In this document: piece after piece, positions 1 to 7,421 of the stretch | How the letters are laid out: every line of letters starts with the position of its first letter | Numbering within the stretch: the stretch's first letter is position 1 | Assembly (NCBI GenBank): GCA_017303935.1 | Contig: JAFLBD010000003.1 | Location: forward strand, 496,001 to 560,000 | Direction of reading: 5' to 3' | Length of the DNA: 64,000 bases | Source: Armatimonadota bacterium | Lineage (GTDB): Bacteria > Armatimonadota > Fimbriimonadia > Fimbriimonadales > Fimbriimonadaceae | Translations under genes and position numbers: made by a program | Notes under the pieces: model-generated | What the model was told of the DNA's origin: nothing | Seen by the model: only the letters and a program-made list of their open reading frames with translations | Database searches by the model: none

Positions 1-1668
1 CCTGAACTGGCGACCAGAATCGGCAATGAACATGGGTTGCCACCATTGGTCTCTCGGCTGCTGGTGAATCGAGGGATCGTCGACTCCGGCGCGATCGAAG
101 CTTTTCTCAATCCGAGCCTCGACAATCTTCACGATCCAAAGCTGCTGCCAGATTACGACGAAGCGGTCAAGCAGATTCTCTCCGCTCGAGAGCTCGGACA
201 CAAGATTTTTATCCACGGCGACTACGACGTGGACGGCGTTACCAGCACCGCGCTATTCAGCAGATTCCTTTCCAAGATCGGCTGCGACATCATCTCGCAC
301 GTTCCTCACCGGATGAAGGAAGGGTATGGCATTCACATTTCTGTGGTTGACCGCGCCCACGAGCAAGGCGCAAAGCTCTTCTTGACTTGCGACTGCGGCG
401 CGAGTGCGATCGAGCAGATCATCCGCGCTAAAGAGCTTGGCATGAATGTAGTCGTCACCGACCACCACTTGCTCAAAGAGAATCTTCCGCCAGCCGATGC
501 GATCGTCAATCCGCACCGATCGGACTCGATTTATCCGTATCCAAATCTGAGCGGCGTCGGAGTTGTATTCAAGCTCTGCGCGGGAATCACCGCCGAACTT
601 GGCCACTCGCTGGATCATTACTACCGCGCCTACCTGGACCTGGCTACGCTAGGCACAGTCGCGGACATCATGCCTTTGACAGGCGAAAACCGGATCATTG
701 TCGCCAACGGGCTCGAACGGGTCCAACTCAGCCAAAAGCCGGGACTGCGAGCGCTCATTTCAAAGATCAACCTCAAGGGCAAGCTCACGACTCGTAATAT
801 CGGATTCAACCTCGGCCCAAGATTGAACGCAGCAGGAAGAATCGATGATGCCGCACTCTCGCTCAAGTTAATGCTGGCGACGGAGGATGACGTCGCGATG
901 GAGATTGCTGACCAGCTCGAAGCCTTGAACAACGAACGTCGCTCCGAACAAGAACGAGTCGTCGCCGAAGCAATGGAGATGGTCGGGGCCAGTGAAGATT
1001 TTGACCTTCCGCTCGTCATTTTGGCCAAAGAAGGATGGCACGAAGGGCTGGTCGGTTTGATGGCAGGAAATTTGGTCAAAGAGTACTACCGCCCGGCTTT
1101 CGTCGCCCGGATCATGGACGGAGAGGCGAAAGGGTCCGCTCGGTCGATCCCTGGCTTCCATCTTGCCGATGCGCTAAACCGCGTTGGGCACCTGCTCAAC
1201 TCGCACGGCGGTCATGAACTCGCAGCCGGCTTCTCGATGGATATCGAGAACTTTGATGAATTCAAGCGATTGCTACTGGAGGATGCAGCCAAAGTGCTTT
1301 CACCAGAACTTCTTGTCCGGACGCTGACCATCGACGCAGAAACGACCATCCGCGAAACGAATCTGGATTCCCTTGCCCAACTCGCAAGATTGGAGCCGTA
1401 TGGACAAGCAAATCCCGAGCCGCTCTTCCTCGCAAGAGGCGTCAAGCTCTCGCACACGATGCCAATGAAAGACCCTAGCCACGTCCGCGCGGTGTTTAGC
1501 GACGGGCGCAAGAACATCGTGACGGGTGTCGGATTCGGGATCGCGCCGCTATTCGAGGGAATCAGTCCGGGAGATACCGTCTCGGTGGTGTTCACCACCG
1601 AAATCGACACTTACGGCGGGAAAGAATCCGCCAAGTGGATGATTAAAGACGTGATGAAGGAATCTTAA
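1..1668 (+). CDS. recJ: Single-stranded-DNA-specific exonuclease RecJ (5' end outside window)
   Basis: RecJ degrades single-stranded DNA 5' to 3' in recombination and mismatch repair. The frame is open from base 1 and already reads like the RecJ N-terminus, so the real start lies upstream; a TTG at 37 is probably internal. DHH-family motifs appear in order: GDYDVDG (motif I), DCGAS (II), TDHH (III) and the DIMPL block (IV), then GPRLNAAGRIDDA and the DHHA1 part with SARS and GGHELAAGFS. A C-terminal OB-like region follows. About 555 residues are visible, close to the usual 550-580. It ends convergent with the HtrA-like gene, overlapping it by 4 nt. Confidence 0.95.
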   Translation, partial: PELATRIGNEHGLPPLVSRLLVNRGIVDSGAIEAFLNPSLDNLHDPKLLPDYDEAVKQILSARELGHKIFIHGDYDVDGVTSTALFSRFLSKIGCDIISHVPHRMKEGYGIHISVVDRAHEQGAKLFLTCDCGASAIEQIIRAKELGMNVVVTDHHLLKENLPPADAIVNPHRSDSIYPYPNLSGVGVVFKLCAGITAELGHSLDHYYRAYLDLATLGTVADIMPLTGENRIIVANGLERVQLSQKPGLRALISKINLKGKLTTRNIGFNLGPRLNAAGRIDDAALSLKLMLATEDDVAMEIADQLEALNNERRSEQERVVAEAMEMVGASEDFDLPLVILAKEGWHEGLVGLMAGNLVKEYYRPAFVARIMDGEAKGSARSIPGFHLADALNRVGHLLNSHGGHELAAGFSMDIENFDEFKRLLLEDAAKVLSPELLVRTLTIDAETTIRETNLDSLAQLARLEPYGQANPEPLFLARGVKLSHTMPMKDPSHVRAVFSDGRKNIVTGVGFGIAPLFEGISPGDTVSVVFTTEIDTYGGKESAKWMIKDVMKES

Positions 1669-2660
1669 GGCTCGAGGGTGATCGAGCCGGACTGAGTGGA
1701 TTTTCGCGATGTTGATTCGATCTTGAGATCGCGAACGTAAACCTCTTCCCCGCGCTTAAACCGAACTGCCATTGTTTCTTCGACTTCGGCTTCAAACAGC
1801 ATCACGGCAAGAGAGATTGAATCGGGCGATTGAAGTTCGCCGAATCGGGTGATGATGTCTCCAGGGCGCAGCCCTATCTTGCCTGCAGGCGATCCCTTGG
1901 AAACGCTGGTGACCACCACTCCGCCGCTCGCGTTCTTATACAGAATTCCTACGAATGGGTGATCGACTTCATGGTCTTCTGAAAGAAATCCCTCGACGAC
2001 TCGAGAGAGAACTTTTGGACCAAGCGCATAGCCTACAGTCACCCCGTGTGGTCCGAACTTTTCTGGAGCGGCTTGGTTCGCAAGTCCTTTCGGCTGTGCC
2101 TGGCCCATTCCAAAAACCGGTTCGAGTGTGGCGTTCAGAATTCCAGCCAATCGGCCATCAACGGTAAGAACTGGTGCGCCCCCAAGCTTTCTGCCCGTCG
2201 ATTCGAACTCAAGCTCCCATAGCCGGACGTAGCGGCGGCTCGATTGCAAAAGACCGTTTCGATTTTGGGAAATCAGTTGCCCAAAGATCGGTCCGTCGCT
2301 ACTCATCGCCACCAATCGCTGTGTCAAAACATCGCTTTCGCTCGCCAACCGCACTGGATTAAATTGTCCAGTCCGCCAATCTTGAGCTTCCAGGAGCACG
2401 AGTTGGGTCATTGAGTCTGCGCCGATTTTGCGCATGCGCAATGTCTGGCCAGAACGCGAAAACCCGATGGTGCTGTTGGACTTTGCTACAACACTCGAGG
2501 CAAGGAACAAGCCTTGATCCGAGATCAGTACCGCGAAGCCCGAAGGCGATTCCTTCGAACCCAGAGCCACCAGTCCCGAGGCAGCCATCTCCAAGTTGTT
2601 GCTTGGAACGGCTTGCCCAGAGAGCGCAAGCAAAGCGGTACTAACTGCCAATAACAACAT
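1665..2660 (-). CDS. HtrA/DegP-like protein with PDZ domain, catalytic triad lost
   Basis: The 331-residue protein begins with a hydrophobic signal segment (residues 1-17), followed by a trypsin-like region (about 35-180) and a PDZ domain (about 235-320, with GSPAGKIGLRPGDII). By-eye alignment to DegP places Ser56 where the catalytic His of NNHVV belongs, Gln86 in place of Asp, and Leu159 in place of the Ser of GNSGG, so it should not be a working serine protease. It is the last gene of a sigma / anti-sigma / HtrA-like operon and overlaps the anti-sigma gene by 20 nt. A regulatory or peptide-binding role in envelope stress sensing, as in the RpoE-RseA-DegS/MucD systems, is inference from that context. 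Confidence 0.82.
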   Translation of the reverse strand: MLLLAVSTALLALSGQAVPSNNLEMAASGLVALGSKESPSGFAVLISDQGLFLASSVVAKSNSTIGFSRSGQTLRMRKIGADSMTQLVLLEAQDWRTGQFNPVRLASESDVLTQRLVAMSSDGPIFGQLISQNRNGLLQSSRRYVRLWELEFESTGRKLGGAPVLTVDGRLAGILNATLEPVFGMGQAQPKGLANQAAPEKFGPHGVTVGYALGPKVLSRVVEGFLSEDHEVDHPFVGILYKNASGGVVVTSVSKGSPAGKIGLRPGDIITRFGELQSPDSISLAVMLFEAEVEETMAVRFKRGEEVYVRDLKIESTSRKSTQSGSITLEP

Positions 2661-3450
2661 CGTCTGATACGTTCACTTCAAAGGCTTCATTTGCGCCGGT
2701 CTCGGAATCAGGCGCGTTGGTCAAGAGCACGGCGTTCTCGCTTTCTGGCGCGCCAGCAGTGCCAAAGCCAGCGTTACCAATTGGGGCGCCAGTACTTTGT
2801 GTGTTCTTCGAATAGCTCTTGTAGGCAACCGATGCGAGGGCGGCCATATCGTCCACCGAAAGATGTCCAGAAATACGTGATCCTGCCGAAGCGATCCCTG
2901 GCATCGGAGCCGAGTCCCTTGAGGCCATCAGTGGTCGATGCCGGCGTGTGGAAGGTCTGGTTGGACGCGCTGGTTCCCGAGTCGAATTGACGTCAACGCT
3001 AGTCTTTGGGCCGGTTTCGATTTCAGGAGAGACTGAGATCTCTTCATCGAGCTTTGGCGCAGAGTTCGTTGGGGCCAACTCCGTATTCGGCGACTGCATC
3101 GCCACGGTTGGATTCGAAGTCTCACCAATAGGACTCTGAATTCGAGAAGTCGACTGGTTCATCGCGATCACCATCAAAGCCGCGGCAGCCGGTACGGCGA
3201 CAGCAAACGGCATCCACCGCATCCACGATGGCTTTGCAGCCGGCGCGGCCTGAATCGCATCCTTTACCCGAGCAAATGAGACTTGGGGCTCAGGAATGCC
3301 TTCATTGAGTTGCTTTAGGTCGGCAAACGCACCTTTGAGCAGCTCTGCGGTCGCCAATTCGTTGGCGGACAGCATTCCCAAGTACTCCTTGGTTTCAGCC
3401 TCGGTCAGTTCACCAGCAGCAAACAGCAATTCCAGTTCTTCGCGTTTCAA
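2641..3450 (-). CDS. Probable membrane anti-sigma factor
   Basis: The gene starts inside the stop of the upstream ECF sigma gene (ATGA overlap at 3447-3450). Residues 1-75 form a charged, mostly helical cytoplasmic part without the HxxxCxxC zinc motif of classical anti-sigma domains. One transmembrane helix lies at about 80-100 (MPFAVAVPAAAALMVIAM). A long Ser/Thr/Pro-rich segment of about 165 residues follows and should be outside the cytoplasm. Position, topology and coupling support an anti-sigma role for the neighbouring sigma factor; no family is recognised with certainty from sequence alone. Confidence 0.72.
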   Translation of the reverse strand: MKREELELLFAAGELTEAETKEYLGMLSANELATAELLKGAFADLKQLNEGIPEPQVSFARVKDAIQAAPAAKPSWMRWMPFAVAVPAAAALMVIAMNQSTSRIQSPIGETSNPTVAMQSPNTELAPTNSAPKLDEEISVSPEIETGPKTSVDVNSTREPARPTRPSTRRHRPLMASRDSAPMPGIASAGSRISGHLSVDDMAALASVAYKSYSKNTQSTGAPIGNAGFGTAGAPESENAVLLTNAPDSETGANEAFEVNVSDDVVIGS

Positions 3451-4052
3451 TTCTTTTCCTCCAGTAGGGGCAACATTCGGTCTCTCAGCGCTCGCCGTGC
3501 TCTCAGCACTCTGAGCTTTGCGCCTCCGACCGTACAGCCACAGATTTGCCCAATCTCCTCATAATCGCGCTCTTCAATGTCGCGCAAAACAATCATATTT
3601 CGGTGGTGCTCCGGGAGCGCGGCGATCGCTTTTCGCAGAATCATCACGCGCCGATCACCTTCTAAATTGTCGACCGGATCGTCGTTGACATTGGCGGTCA
3701 TCCAACTGAGCGCACCTTGAGCTTCTTGCTGCTCCAAATGCTGCCGTCGATTGGACATCCGCGCTCGGTCTGTGCCTAGGTTCGTCGCGATCCGCAACAA
3801 CCATGTCGTGAACTTGGCTTCGTCTCGATACCGCTCCAGGTTTTTGTAGGCACGAACAAACACCTCCTGTACAATATCTTCGGCATCATCGCGCCGCCCA
3901 CACATCTGAAAAGCAAATCGGTACACCATTTGCCGATGACGATCAAACAACTTTTCGAATGCATCGAAGTTGCCTGCCTTTGCCGCGAGAACTAATGCCT
4001 CGTCGCTGTCGGGATCTAGTTGGTGATCCCAGGCACCCACAGGGGTTGTCAT
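3447..4052 (-). CDS. ECF-family RNA polymerase sigma factor
   Basis: Sigma-70 region 2 is at about residues 25-95 (DAFEKLFDRHRQMVYRFA, DAEDIVQEVFVRAY, FTTWLLRIATN) and region 4 at about 140-195 (ALPEHHRNMIVLRDIEERDYEEIGQI, then the helix-turn-helix). Region 3 and region 1 are absent, as in ECF sigma factors. The frame is open upstream to 4322, but that would overlap the divergent parvulin gene; ATG 4052 gives a normal 201-residue protein that starts directly before region 2. It is the first gene of the operon with the anti-sigma and HtrA-like genes, so autoregulation from the 4053-4254 intergenic region is likely. Confidence 0.9.
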   Translation of the reverse strand: MTTPVGAWDHQLDPDSDEALVLAAKAGNFDAFEKLFDRHRQMVYRFAFQMCGRRDDAEDIVQEVFVRAYKNLERYRDEAKFTTWLLRIATNLGTDRARMSNRRQHLEQQEAQGALSWMTANVNDDPVDNLEGDRRVMILRKAIAALPEHHRNMIVLRDIEERDYEEIGQICGCTVGGAKLRVLRARRALRDRMLPLLEEKN

Positions 4053-4172
4053 CTTTCGCTTTATTGTAAGTGCAATCGAAGCCATTTTGTCTCGGGGGCA
4101 ACGGCATATTGGCCGCTTTACAGAAGAAAAACGTCTTGACAGGCTCAAAGTTACGCAGGACTTTTGACCTGA

Positions 4173-4194
4173 AATCGGTGACGCGCAACCGATT
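4173..4194. promoter_or_regulatory. Inverted repeat in divergent promoter region
   Basis: AATCGGT (4173-4179) and ACCGATT (4188-4194) form a perfect 7-bp inverted repeat with an 8-nt spacer, in the 200-bp region between the divergent ECF sigma operon and the parvulin gene. The spacing, 15 nt centre to centre, suits a dimeric regulator. An operator role is inference; no regulator is identified. Confidence 0.35.
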
Positions 4195-4254
4195 GTCGTT
4201 CGTCCTTTACCTAGGAAACTCGTCAGGGCGTTCTCAAATTGCCCTGCGTCTTGC

Positions 4255-5214
4255 GTGAAATCTATGTCGTATTTGAAAAAAGGCCTTTTGCTGGCCACCC
4301 TGATTTTTGCGAGCTTGGCCAATGCTCAGAGCGATCCGACCAAACCAGTTGCCACCGTTAATGGCGAAACCATTTCTGGACTCGAATACTTCCGGCGCAT
4401 GGAATTTTTGCCAGGCGTCGGCCGGATGGTGCGGGGAGAATTCACCGAAACTTGGCCGGGATACATTGCCATGCAGCAGCTCATCAATGAGCGGTTGATC
4501 CTACAACTCGCCAAAGAGCGAGGAGTATTCCCGAAAGAGGCCGATGTCAAGGCAGAACTTGATTCCAAGGTCGCTGCTAATCCAAAGCTAATCGAGAACC
4601 TCGCCAAAGTAGGCATCTCGAAGGCAGATTTGGAGAATCAAATCCGAGTTGACCTCGCCGAATTCAATATCATCACCCAAGGCATCACCATCACCGATCT
4701 GGAAGTCGAAAAGCACTACAAAGACAATCCAAGCCGGTTCACGATTCCAAAGCGGTACAAGCTGCGCCTGATTGCCATTCCAGCCGAGCGAAAGGCGAGC
4801 GTCGAGGCCGATCTCGCTGCGGGCAAACCGTTTGCAGACGTTGCCACCAAGTACAGCACCGATCCTAGCTCGCTTCAAGGCGGAAGCATCGGCGAGGTCC
4901 CAGCCAACGCTTTTTCCGAACCAGTTCTTAAGGTACTCGATGCGACCAAGATCGGTACCGCGACGGACTGGGTGCAAGGCAACACAGGCCTGTTTAAGTT
5001 CTATATCGAAGATATCAAGCCTCAAGAGAAGATTCCACTAGACGACAACCTCAAGAAGCAACTTCGAAAGAGCTTGATGCTCGACCGGGGCCGTGTCAAG
5101 AACAACATTGAAAAGCTGATGGCAGAAATGCGAAAGAAAGCAAAGATCGAAGTCGTTCAACCAGGCCTGAGCGACATGATCAAAGACTGGCAGCTCAGCC
5201 CAATCGCCGACTGA
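4255..5214 (+). CDS. Secreted parvulin-type peptidylprolyl isomerase (SurA/PrsA-like)
   Basis: The N-terminus is a signal peptide (KKGLLLATLIFASLANAQ). A SurA-N-like helical chaperone region covers about residues 30-150, then a parvulin domain at about 160-260 (KRYKLRLIAI, FADVATKYSTDPSS, GGSIGEV) and a C-terminal helix. Such proteins help fold exported or outer-membrane proteins. Start choice is uncertain: GTG 4255 or ATG 4264, both before the signal peptide. It is divergent from an ECF sigma / HtrA-like operon, an arrangement that fits shared envelope-stress control. The gene ends at a strong terminator shared with the convergent MATE gene. Confidence 0.88.
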   Translation: MKSMSYLKKGLLLATLIFASLANAQSDPTKPVATVNGETISGLEYFRRMEFLPGVGRMVRGEFTETWPGYIAMQQLINERLILQLAKERGVFPKEADVKAELDSKVAANPKLIENLAKVGISKADLENQIRVDLAEFNIITQGITITDLEVEKHYKDNPSRFTIPKRYKLRLIAIPAERKASVEADLAAGKPFADVATKYSTDPSSLQGGSIGEVPANAFSEPVLKVLDATKIGTATDWVQGNTGLFKFYIEDIKPQEKIPLDDNLKKQLRKSLMLDRGRVKNNIEKLMAEMRKKAKIEVVQPGLSDMIKDWQLSPIAD

Positions 5215-5234
5215 TCGCACTCAAGACTCAATGT

Positions 5235-5267
5235 AAAAAAGAACCCGGCTCACCGGGTTCTTTTTTT
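5235..5267. terminator. Bidirectional rho-independent terminator
   Basis: GAACCCGG (5241-5248) and CCGGGTTC (5253-5260) form an 8-bp stem with a CTCA loop. A run of T follows on the plus strand (5260-5267) and a run of A precedes it (5235-5240), so it should stop both the parvulin and the convergent MATE transcripts. Confidence 0.9.
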
Positions 5268-5269
5268 GT

Positions 5270-6670
5270 CTAGACCTTGATCGTTTTCCAGTGCCCCTGA
5301 TTCCAGGTCCACATCGCCATCAATCCTTGCGCCGCCTGCGAACCACTCATCGCAATCCAAGCTCCGGTCGGCCCGAAGAAATGGATCAAAACAAGCGCAA
5401 GCGGTACGCGCAGTCCCCACAGTGAAGCGATCGTGATCCAGGTCGTGCGCCTGGTATCCCCCGCCCCTTGAAGCGCGCCGATCATAACCATGGCATAGGC
5501 GAACAGAATCTCGGTTACGATGAGGATTCGGATGTACATCATCGCTTGGTAGGCAATCCCGGGCTTATCACCGCCCGTCAGAATGTCTGCGATTTGTGGG
5601 GCAAAGATGAACGTGGGAATAGACAGAATAGCCACAACGATTGCGGCGGAATGCCCCGCAACCCACCCTAATTGGTGCGCCCGCTCAGGCTTCTTTGCTC
5701 CGAGATTCTGACCAACGAGCGCGCCTGCTGCCATCGAGAGTCCGAACGCTGGCATGAACATGATCGCTTCGATGGCGATGCCGATTCTTAGGGCGCCCAT
5801 CGCGTTTTCTGCGCCAGGAGCACTTTTCAGTAAGAAGGTGAAAACGCTAAAGCTCAGCACCCGAAGGATCGCTTGCAGCGCGCCCGGTCCCGCGATGTTA
5901 AACACACGGTTGGTCCAGCTCTTGGTGGGAATTTCAAAGTTGAAAGAATTCCCGAGCGCTGTGCCTCGGACAAAGAACAAATAGATCACCGCGCTGAGCC
6001 AAGCGCTAATGGCGAGCGCGAGTGCTGCGCCCGGTAACCCCATCCCCGCCCCAGGGACGTTGACGCCATACATCTCCCTGCTCGGAAAAATCAGGAAGAA
6101 GTTCAAGATCATGTGGATCAGAATCTGCAGCCCGCTAAAGAACATGGGCGACTTGGTATCTCCGACTCCACGCAACGATCCCGCGAGCACCGTGATGATT
6201 GCCGAAGCCGGCAATGAACAGGAGAAGATGCTCAGGAACTTGATGAATTGTTCCGCCGCGACATGATCTGTTTCAGGAACCAAAATCCTGGGCAGCAGCG
6301 GGACGATCGCCAAGCCTACAAGCATCATGACGACGCCAAAGAGGAACCCCAATACTAGGCATCGGCGGTTGGCTTCCTTGTACTCGGCTTCCTGTTTTGC
6401 ACCAAACGCCCGGCTGACGAGTGCTGTGCTAGCGACACTCACCGTCATGATCAGCGAGAACATTAGAAAGATCACGTTGAGCGCAGATCCATGAGCCGTG
6501 AGCGCAGACTTTGGAAGGTGCCCCACGAAATACGTGTCTAACAAGCTGTTGATGACCTGGAGGCCGTTCAGAGCGACGGCTGGCCAAGCGAGTCTCCAAA
6601 CTTCCTTCACATCCCCAATCGGCAATACGCGATTGTCTTTCAGAGACGGCAATAGTGAAGGAACTTTCAA
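5270..6670 (-). CDS. MATE-family multidrug/Na+ antiporter
   Basis: A polytopic membrane protein with about 12 hydrophobic segments and MATE signatures: RLAWPAVALNGLQVINSLLDTYFVG in the first helix region, VSRAFGAK, GSLRGVGDTKSP and the second-half equivalents GALVGQNLGAK and GALQGAGDTRRT. The pseudo-symmetry of two halves is clear. It would export drugs or metabolites against Na+ or H+ entry. The frame is open to ATG 6748, but that overlaps the start of the divergent AIM24 gene; TTG 6670 or GTG 6610 are better placed, none with a good ribosome binding site, so the start is uncertain. Confidence 0.9.
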   Translation of the reverse strand: MKVPSLLPSLKDNRVLPIGDVKEVWRLAWPAVALNGLQVINSLLDTYFVGHLPKSALTAHGSALNVIFLMFSLIMTVSVASTALVSRAFGAKQEAEYKEANRRCLVLGFLFGVVMMLVGLAIVPLLPRILVPETDHVAAEQFIKFLSIFSCSLPASAIITVLAGSLRGVGDTKSPMFFSGLQILIHMILNFFLIFPSREMYGVNVPGAGMGLPGAALALAISAWLSAVIYLFFVRGTALGNSFNFEIPTKSWTNRVFNIAGPGALQAILRVLSFSVFTFLLKSAPGAENAMGALRIGIAIEAIMFMPAFGLSMAAGALVGQNLGAKKPERAHQLGWVAGHSAAIVVAILSIPTFIFAPQIADILTGGDKPGIAYQAMMYIRILIVTEILFAYAMVMIGALQGAGDTRRTTWITIASLWGLRVPLALVLIHFFGPTGAWIAMSGSQAAQGLMAMWTWNQGHWKTIKV

Positions 6671-6746
6671 AATGGGACAGCACAGTCTACGTGTTTTGTC
6701 ACTCAATTTGTTTCGGTAAACAAACCTGAAGTAAGATTCAAACAAC

Positions 6747-7421
6747 ATGCATTACGAGCTGTTGTATCAACCTGCGTTCGCCGTGGCCCGAATCACCTTG
6801 CAACCTGGCGAGAGCATTCGCGCTGAAAGTGGCGCGATGATTGGGATGTCGCCAAATGTCGAAATCAGCAGCAAGCTCCCAGGTGGCATTGGCAAGGCGA
6901 TCGGCCGAGTATTGGGTGGCGAGAGCATCTTCCAAACCACGTTCACCGCTCACAATTCGATTGGAGAAGTTCTGCTAGCACCCGCCACTCCAGGAGATAT
7001 CCTTCCGATTAATCCCGGCGCCGGGCTCGTAGTCACCAGCGGTTGTTACCTCGCAGGGCAGACTCACCTCGAAATGAAGACAGTCGCCTCCATGAAAGGC
7101 TTCTTTGCGGGAGAAGGTCTGTTCATGATGCAACTGATTGGCGATGGGCTGGCTCTTCTTAGCTCATTTGGAGCGGTTCATGCGGTCAACCTCGAGCCTG
7201 GTCAACAATACGTTGTCGATACGGGAAATCTGGTCGCGTTCACTCTCGGGATGAACTATGCTGTGCGCGCTGCGCAAAAGAGCTTGCTCGGTTCGTTCAC
7301 CTCTGGCGAAGGATATGTGGTGAATCTGACCGGACCAGGCCAAATTTACATTCAAACACGGACATTGAACCTTGGCGGATCTGGTGGAAACGGTGTCAAC
7401 CTGCTGAATCTGTTCAACTAA
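6747..7421 (+). CDS. AIM24/TIGR00266-family protein
   Basis: The 224-residue protein matches the bacterial AIM24 (TIGR00266) family over its length: AVARITLQPGESIRAESGAMIGM near the N-terminus, FAGEGLFMMQLIGDG in the middle and LVNLTGPGQIYIQTR near the C-terminus. The family is a double beta-helix-like fold related to the mitochondrial protein Aim24; its biochemical role in bacteria is unknown. The C-terminus is Gly/Asn-rich. The next gene starts at the base after its stop codon, so the two are probably translated together. Confidence 0.85.
   Translation: MHYELLYQPAFAVARITLQPGESIRAESGAMIGMSPNVEISSKLPGGIGKAIGRVLGGESIFQTTFTAHNSIGEVLLAPATPGDILPINPGAGLVVTSGCYLAGQTHLEMKTVASMKGFFAGEGLFMMQLIGDGLALLSSFGAVHAVNLEPGQQYVVDTGNLVAFTLGMNYAVRAAQKSLLGSFTSGEGYVVNLTGPGQIYIQTRTLNLGGSGGNGVNLLNLFN

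Follow-up and report, generated by a model that had tools for sequence, protein, structure and literature searches.

Gene organization of the locus

The window, i.e. the whole stretch of 64,000 nucleotides that was analyzed (G000:C3:496001-560000), comes from a genome of 2.56 Mb in four contigs (G000). An operon on its minus strand encodes, in this order, an ECF sigma factor, an anti-sigma factor and, as the third gene, an HtrA-like protein lacking the catalytic triad, hereafter pseudo-HtrA; the convergent recJ gene ends at 1668.

3447-4052, minus strand: ECF sigma factor with regions 2 and 4, sharing 4 nt with the anti-sigma gene
3447-3450, minus strand: overlap of the sigma and anti-sigma genes, 4 nt
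2641-3450, minus strand: anti-sigma factor, 269 aa, with a cytoplasmic part (~1-75), one transmembrane segment (~79-97) and an extracytoplasmic linker and tail
2641-2660, minus strand: overlap of the 3' end of the anti-sigma gene with the start of the pseudo-HtrA gene, 20 nt
1665-2660, minus strand: pseudo-HtrA gene, 331 aa, with a signal-like N-terminus, a chymotrypsin-fold domain without the triad and one PDZ domain

An earlier note on this DNA had placed the HtrA-like gene correctly, in coordinates as well as in strand, and its remark that the three genes overlap was also true, the overlaps being those of 4 and 20 nt listed above. The sigma factor matches PF04542 (E 2e-20) and PF08281 (E 9e-12) in Pfam and follows the ECF plan, with regions 2 and 4 only and the anti-sigma gene adjacent; its identity among 22 aligned family members is 68-78%. 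A SurA/PPIase-like gene (4255-5214, plus strand) is divergent from the sigma gene; at the sigma locus of the relatives, those of the same genus included, this neighbor was not found.

Fold of the pseudo-HtrA and loss of the catalytic triad

Pfam analysis of the pseudo-HtrA detected a PDZ_2 domain (E 3e-9) and, only below threshold, Trypsin_2 at residues 43-174 (E 0.006). An AlphaFold2 model based on an alignment of 71 orthologues (pLDDT 88.9, pTM 0.84) displays a chymotrypsin-like domain followed by a PDZ domain, as in HtrA/Deg (S1C) proteins, without their His-Asp-Ser triad. Residues 11-323 of the model match HtrA and PepD of M. tuberculosis, Deg1, DegS, AlgW and MucD; the best rows gave VIA Z values of 20-24 with 260-284 residues aligned at 16-21% identity, and among the matches listed for Foldseek and VIA-align all were HtrA/Deg proteins. 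The trypsin-like domain and PDZ read earlier from the letters alone agree with the model, DegS being among its matches. A hydrophobic stretch at the N-terminus is consistent with a signal sequence, and the protein is probably secreted. Two other memberships were considered and rejected: RseB/MucB, because the model of the entire protein is HtrA plus PDZ and Pfam gives no RseB/MucB match, and the MamO type, because the C-terminus is a PDZ rather than a TauE domain and the context is a sigma operon, not a magnetosome one.

To assign the triad positions, the pseudo-HtrA was aligned with intact HtrAs from its own phylum:

2490-2492, minus strand: Val57, at the catalytic His position in the alignment with intact HtrAs
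2403-2405, minus strand: Gln86, at the catalytic Asp position (Gln in 50/76 family rows)
2181-2183, minus strand: Gly160, at the catalytic Ser position (Gly in 54/76 and Ala in 12/76 family rows)

The earlier note had named Ser56, Gln86 and Leu159 as the replacements; the triad loss and Gln86 hold, while the other two assignments were one residue off, the residues concerned being Val57 and Gly160. The window protein reads GGAP where intact HtrAs have SGGP, and shifting the register of the alignment yields no triad. Within the Fimbriimonadaceae (family f1, Armatimonadota) the His position is mostly Ser (41/76), and a His at residue 55 is frequent (48/76). The replacements vary among the other family groups of the genome set (f2, f3, f13 and f19): f2 proteins have mostly kept the Asp, with Glu, Asp or Pro at the His position and the Ser lost; f3 proteins carry Glu/Asp for His, Gly/Asn for Asp and Pro/Gln for Ser, with Ser in three; and two further classes (f19 and f13) show a fixed Asp/Glu - Asn - Ser. 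The earlier note had allowed for orthologues with an intact triad and for a triad located elsewhere in the fold; the ~115 orthologues read include no intact triad, and no conserved His/Asp/Ser set elsewhere in the fold was found among the 71 pseudo-HtrA orthologues.

D82, P204 and G238 are invariant in these 71 orthologues, and G41, G50, G71, R143, E149, E153 and others, many of them glycines, nearly so; Ser and His are absent from the listed residues of both kinds. That the protein is still a protease by means of an unusual active site would agree with the common His55 and with the Ser retained in the outgroup classes, but we hold it to be very improbable, as the Ser position is Gly/Ala in most family members, the Asp position is Gln and no nucleophile occurs among the invariant or near-invariant columns. 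Since the triad is absent, cleavage of the anti-sigma factor by the pseudo-HtrA is not expected, and the protein is, judging from its sequence, unable to serve as a site-1 protease. Because the catalytic residues are lost in every relative examined, the pseudo-HtrA probably works by binding, not cutting.

The anti-sigma factor and its C-terminal tail

The HxxxCxxC motif expected near the N-terminus of zf-HC2/ZAS anti-sigma factors is absent from the window anti-sigma, although it is present in most of the orthologues from other families and classes, some with weak zf-HC2 matches. The zinc motif has been lost in the Fimbriimonadaceae, a loss that parallels the additional decay of their HtrA active site. 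The extracytoplasmic part, which follows a single hydrophobic segment, is long and of low complexity and ends in a conserved tail:

2644-2730, minus strand: conserved C-terminal tail of the anti-sigma factor, in the window ...TGANEAFEVNVSDDVVIGS

The family form of the tail is [VI]VxI....D..TGA..ATEV....NVx[VFI]GG-COOH, with Gly-Gly at the C-terminus in 59/71 Fimbriimonadaceae anti-sigmas. The mean fraction of the majority residue is 0.50 in the tail (residues 241-269), as compared to 0.44 in the cytoplasmic part and 0.23 in the linker. Other lineages have conserved tails of their own, such as ...SF-COOH in f3 and ...AGAVE and ...YVMGTLTP...Y in other classes. Within the gene overlap the third codon positions of the anti-sigma gene, which are the second codon positions of the pseudo-HtrA gene, have a mean entropy of 1.24 bits, versus 1.02 and 0.37 bits; as the wobble positions of the anti-sigma gene vary most, its C-terminus is the constrained product there.

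HtrA PDZ domains bind C-termini, one example being AlgW, which binds the C-terminal tail of MucE (PMC8545111), thus making the anti-sigma tail a natural candidate ligand. When the tail was artificially joined to the pseudo-HtrA in AlphaFold2 (the four-base word AGTT at the gene overlap being read as S, and homologues being supplied for the pseudo-HtrA only) it remained unplaced with a pLDDT of ~40, in a construct in which the free C-terminus of the tail is blocked and the tail has no homologues in the alignment; this outcome does not count against binding.

Gene coupling and a putative promoter

From the ATG of the pseudo-HtrA gene to the end of the anti-sigma stop codon the distance is exactly 20 nt in 54 of 70 Fimbriimonadaceae loci (57 when GTG is included), and 42/71 family loci have a sigma/anti-sigma overlap of 4 nt. 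This exact offset supports the earlier suggestion that the pseudo-HtrA is made in step with the anti-sigma factor.

Upstream of the sigma gene, at a near-fixed distance, the element G[A/T]AAC-N16-CGT[C/T] was found in 61 of 62 non-redundant loci, with a spacing of 16 in 60 of them, whereas base-shuffled controls averaged 1.7 and never exceeded 5. The site in the window is of the CGTT form:

4130-4154, minus strand: putative autoregulatory promoter, GTAAC-N16-CGTT

Autoregulated ECF promoters have such a form, and with this element preceding the sigma gene the operon is probably autoregulated. The exact GWAAC-N16-CGTC is absent from the window; genome-wide it has 20 sites versus 56 for the reversed control, showing no enrichment, and we claim no regulon. 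Only a few of these sites in the genome lie before plausible genes; those directly before genes at L298, L301 and L307 precede two secreted proteins and one sugar-transferase-like protein, possible regulon members.

Autoregulation also speaks for a different reading, in which the pseudo-HtrA belongs to the output of the sigma regulon instead of regulating it; it would then be a chaperone or scaffold of the periplasm, similar to DegP but non-catalytic, induced together with the sigma factor. Proteins of the HtrA fold can hold unfolded polypeptides and leave them uncut. Active HtrAs, moreover, are classically among the targets of sigma-E type factors (PMC8103513). We nevertheless find this reading rather unlikely, given that a coupling to the anti-sigma gene at exactly 20 nt is more in line with 1:1 partners, and that the pseudo-HtrA has one PDZ domain where DegP has two.

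Distribution, selection and origin

A profile search located the pseudo-HtrA gene in 76 of 85 Fimbriimonadaceae genomes, and the sigma/anti-sigma/pseudo-HtrA order with the convergent recJ is kept throughout the family; beyond it, the operon is also present in related families of the class and in two further classes of Armatimonadota. In two of the nine Fimbriimonadaceae genomes without the gene (G002 and G032) the sigma and anti-sigma genes run into a contig end, and the remaining seven have no close match to the window sigma factor either. Among these seven are the reduced 1.5-Mb genomes G059 and G060, which have lost both sigma factor and pseudo-HtrA. The orthologues are only 23-46% identical to the window protein, which as a single query against the genome contigs detected no relatives.

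In close pairs the dN/dS of the pseudo-HtrA gene is 0.006-0.11, similar to that of the sigma gene, which indicates strong purifying selection. The earlier note had considered a decay specific to this one sequence; the operon in related genomes, with the triad missing from every orthologue read, shows that this is not a one-off. A recent decay or pseudogene in a single genome was likewise rejected, its probability being negligible: triad loss is common to all orthologues in three classes, and the family-wide sharing of the operon together with the low dN/dS argues against local decay.

A tree of 89 proteins, obtained by a quick search with several long branches and with the three triad columns included, has one branch (SH-aLRT 99) parting 28 intact HtrAs from all the inactive ones. 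Read most simply, His and Asp were lost once, long ago, in a duplicated operon, and the remaining position drifted afterwards. The pseudo-HtrA operon of family f3 stands in tandem with a canonical sigma/zinc anti-sigma/intact-HtrA operon (L140 and L143; partly L145 and L152), an arrangement that fits an origin by duplication of the sigma/anti-sigma/HtrA unit. The window's own genome holds an operon of the canonical kind:

L113 (G000:C2:48500-56500), 3332-7025, minus strand: canonical sigma operon with ECF sigma, zinc anti-sigma (HxxxCxxC), RseB-like protein and a 540-aa HtrA

The triad of this HtrA is intact (motifs TNDHVV, RNDLAVV and GNSGGPL). The two operons have the same overall plan and are likely of common origin; that of L113 differs by its intact active site, its two PDZ domains and its RseB-like gene. 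This operon, the conserved anti-sigma tail and the conserved promoter go beyond what the earlier note had described. The genome also encodes an RseP-type M50 protease, which together with the intact HtrAs could be the source of the missing cuts.

The intact HtrAs are relevant to a further reading, in which the pseudo-HtrA forms a mixed oligomer with, or allosterically activates, an active HtrA elsewhere in the cell and so modulates it; MamO offers a precedent, being needed non-catalytically for MamE proteolysis (PMC4794232), and the f3 tandem places the pseudo-HtrA operon beside one with an active HtrA. In the Fimbriimonadaceae, however, the active HtrA is unlinked to the pseudo-HtrA, whose constant partner is the anti-sigma factor, and we judge such modulation quite improbable.

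Proposed mode of action

Our preferred reading, which we hold about as readily as we doubt it, is that the pseudo-HtrA acts as a non-catalytic extracytoplasmic binding partner and sensor for the anti-sigma factor and shields its tail in the manner of RseB. The membrane anti-sigma would hold the ECF sigma factor, and the secreted pseudo-HtrA, made from the same mRNA, would act on it through binding alone, most likely with its PDZ domain and/or its defunct substrate cleft holding the conserved tail outside the membrane. Once bound, it may shield the anti-sigma from a separate site-1 protease, as RseB/MucB do for RseA/MucA; shielding is preferred here to exposing because RseB protects RseA from DegS (PMC8103513). 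Misfolded envelope proteins or other PDZ ligands would then compete and release the tail, another, active protease would cut the anti-sigma, RseP would complete the process, and the freed sigma factor would turn on its own operon via the G[A/T]AAC-N16-CGTC promoter. The joint loss of sigma factor and pseudo-HtrA in G059 and G060 and the conservation of the tail count in favor of a binding partner; on the other hand, GG-COOH is atypical as a ligand of HtrA PDZ domains, which counts against binding of the tail, and the tail motifs differ between families, so that there may be more than one binding mode. In a more specific version, possible but on balance doubtful, the conserved C-terminal anti-sigma peptide stays in the pseudo-HtrA as a resident ligand, and envelope stress is sensed when this peptide is exchanged; the usual sensor-protease step would then be replaced by a sensor that only binds, fixed across at least three classes of the phylum.

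The textbook pathway of envelope stress combines sensing and cutting in one HtrA protease. Here evolution would have kept the sensor module tied to the anti-sigma factor and dropped the cutter across the clade, separating sensing from cutting; the presence of active and inactive sigma/anti-sigma/HtrA operons in one cell provides a natural experiment. As judged from its sequences, the sigma/anti-sigma/pseudo-HtrA unit is an ancient, conserved switch in Armatimonadota, a little-studied phylum with almost no regulatory biology, and it adds a clear prokaryotic pseudoprotease family beyond those of magnetosomes.

Comparison with known systems

Both parts of this arrangement are known, namely sigma/anti-sigma/HtrA clusters and pseudoprotease HtrAs; the two together, fixed across at least three classes, did not turn up in the literature searched, which likewise described no pseudo-HtrA belonging to a sigma operon, the coverage being incomplete (the main ECF classification paper lay outside it).

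The DegS/RseA/RpoE and AlgW/MucA/AlgU systems share with the operon an ECF sigma factor, a membrane anti-sigma and a periplasmic HtrA fold with one PDZ, as well as an RseP-type protease in the genome. They differ from it in that the HtrA described here lacks the triad and is encoded in the operon by a gene overlapping that of the anti-sigma, and in that the Fimbriimonadaceae anti-sigma has no zinc motif. RseB/MucB resemble the role proposed for the pseudo-HtrA, a non-catalytic extracytoplasmic partner of the anti-sigma with its gene in the sigma operon, but their fold is unrelated to HtrA plus PDZ and the partner binding is, in our case, one that we infer.

The sigE locus of M. tuberculosis comprises sigE and a rseA-htrA-tatB operon, whose HtrA is an essential active serine protease (PMC10027907). 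It is similar in that htrA directly follows the sigma/anti-sigma pair, and its HtrA is among the closest solved folds; it differs by the activity of that HtrA and by the fact that sigE and rseA are not cotranscribed (PMC10027907). Finally, MamO and the degenerate MamE copies, pseudoproteases of the magnetosome (PMC4794232), likewise reuse the HtrA/trypsin-like fold after loss of catalysis and have kept it over long evolution, MamO being distinguished by its TauE domain, its metal-binding histidines and a role in biomineralization with no sigma system.
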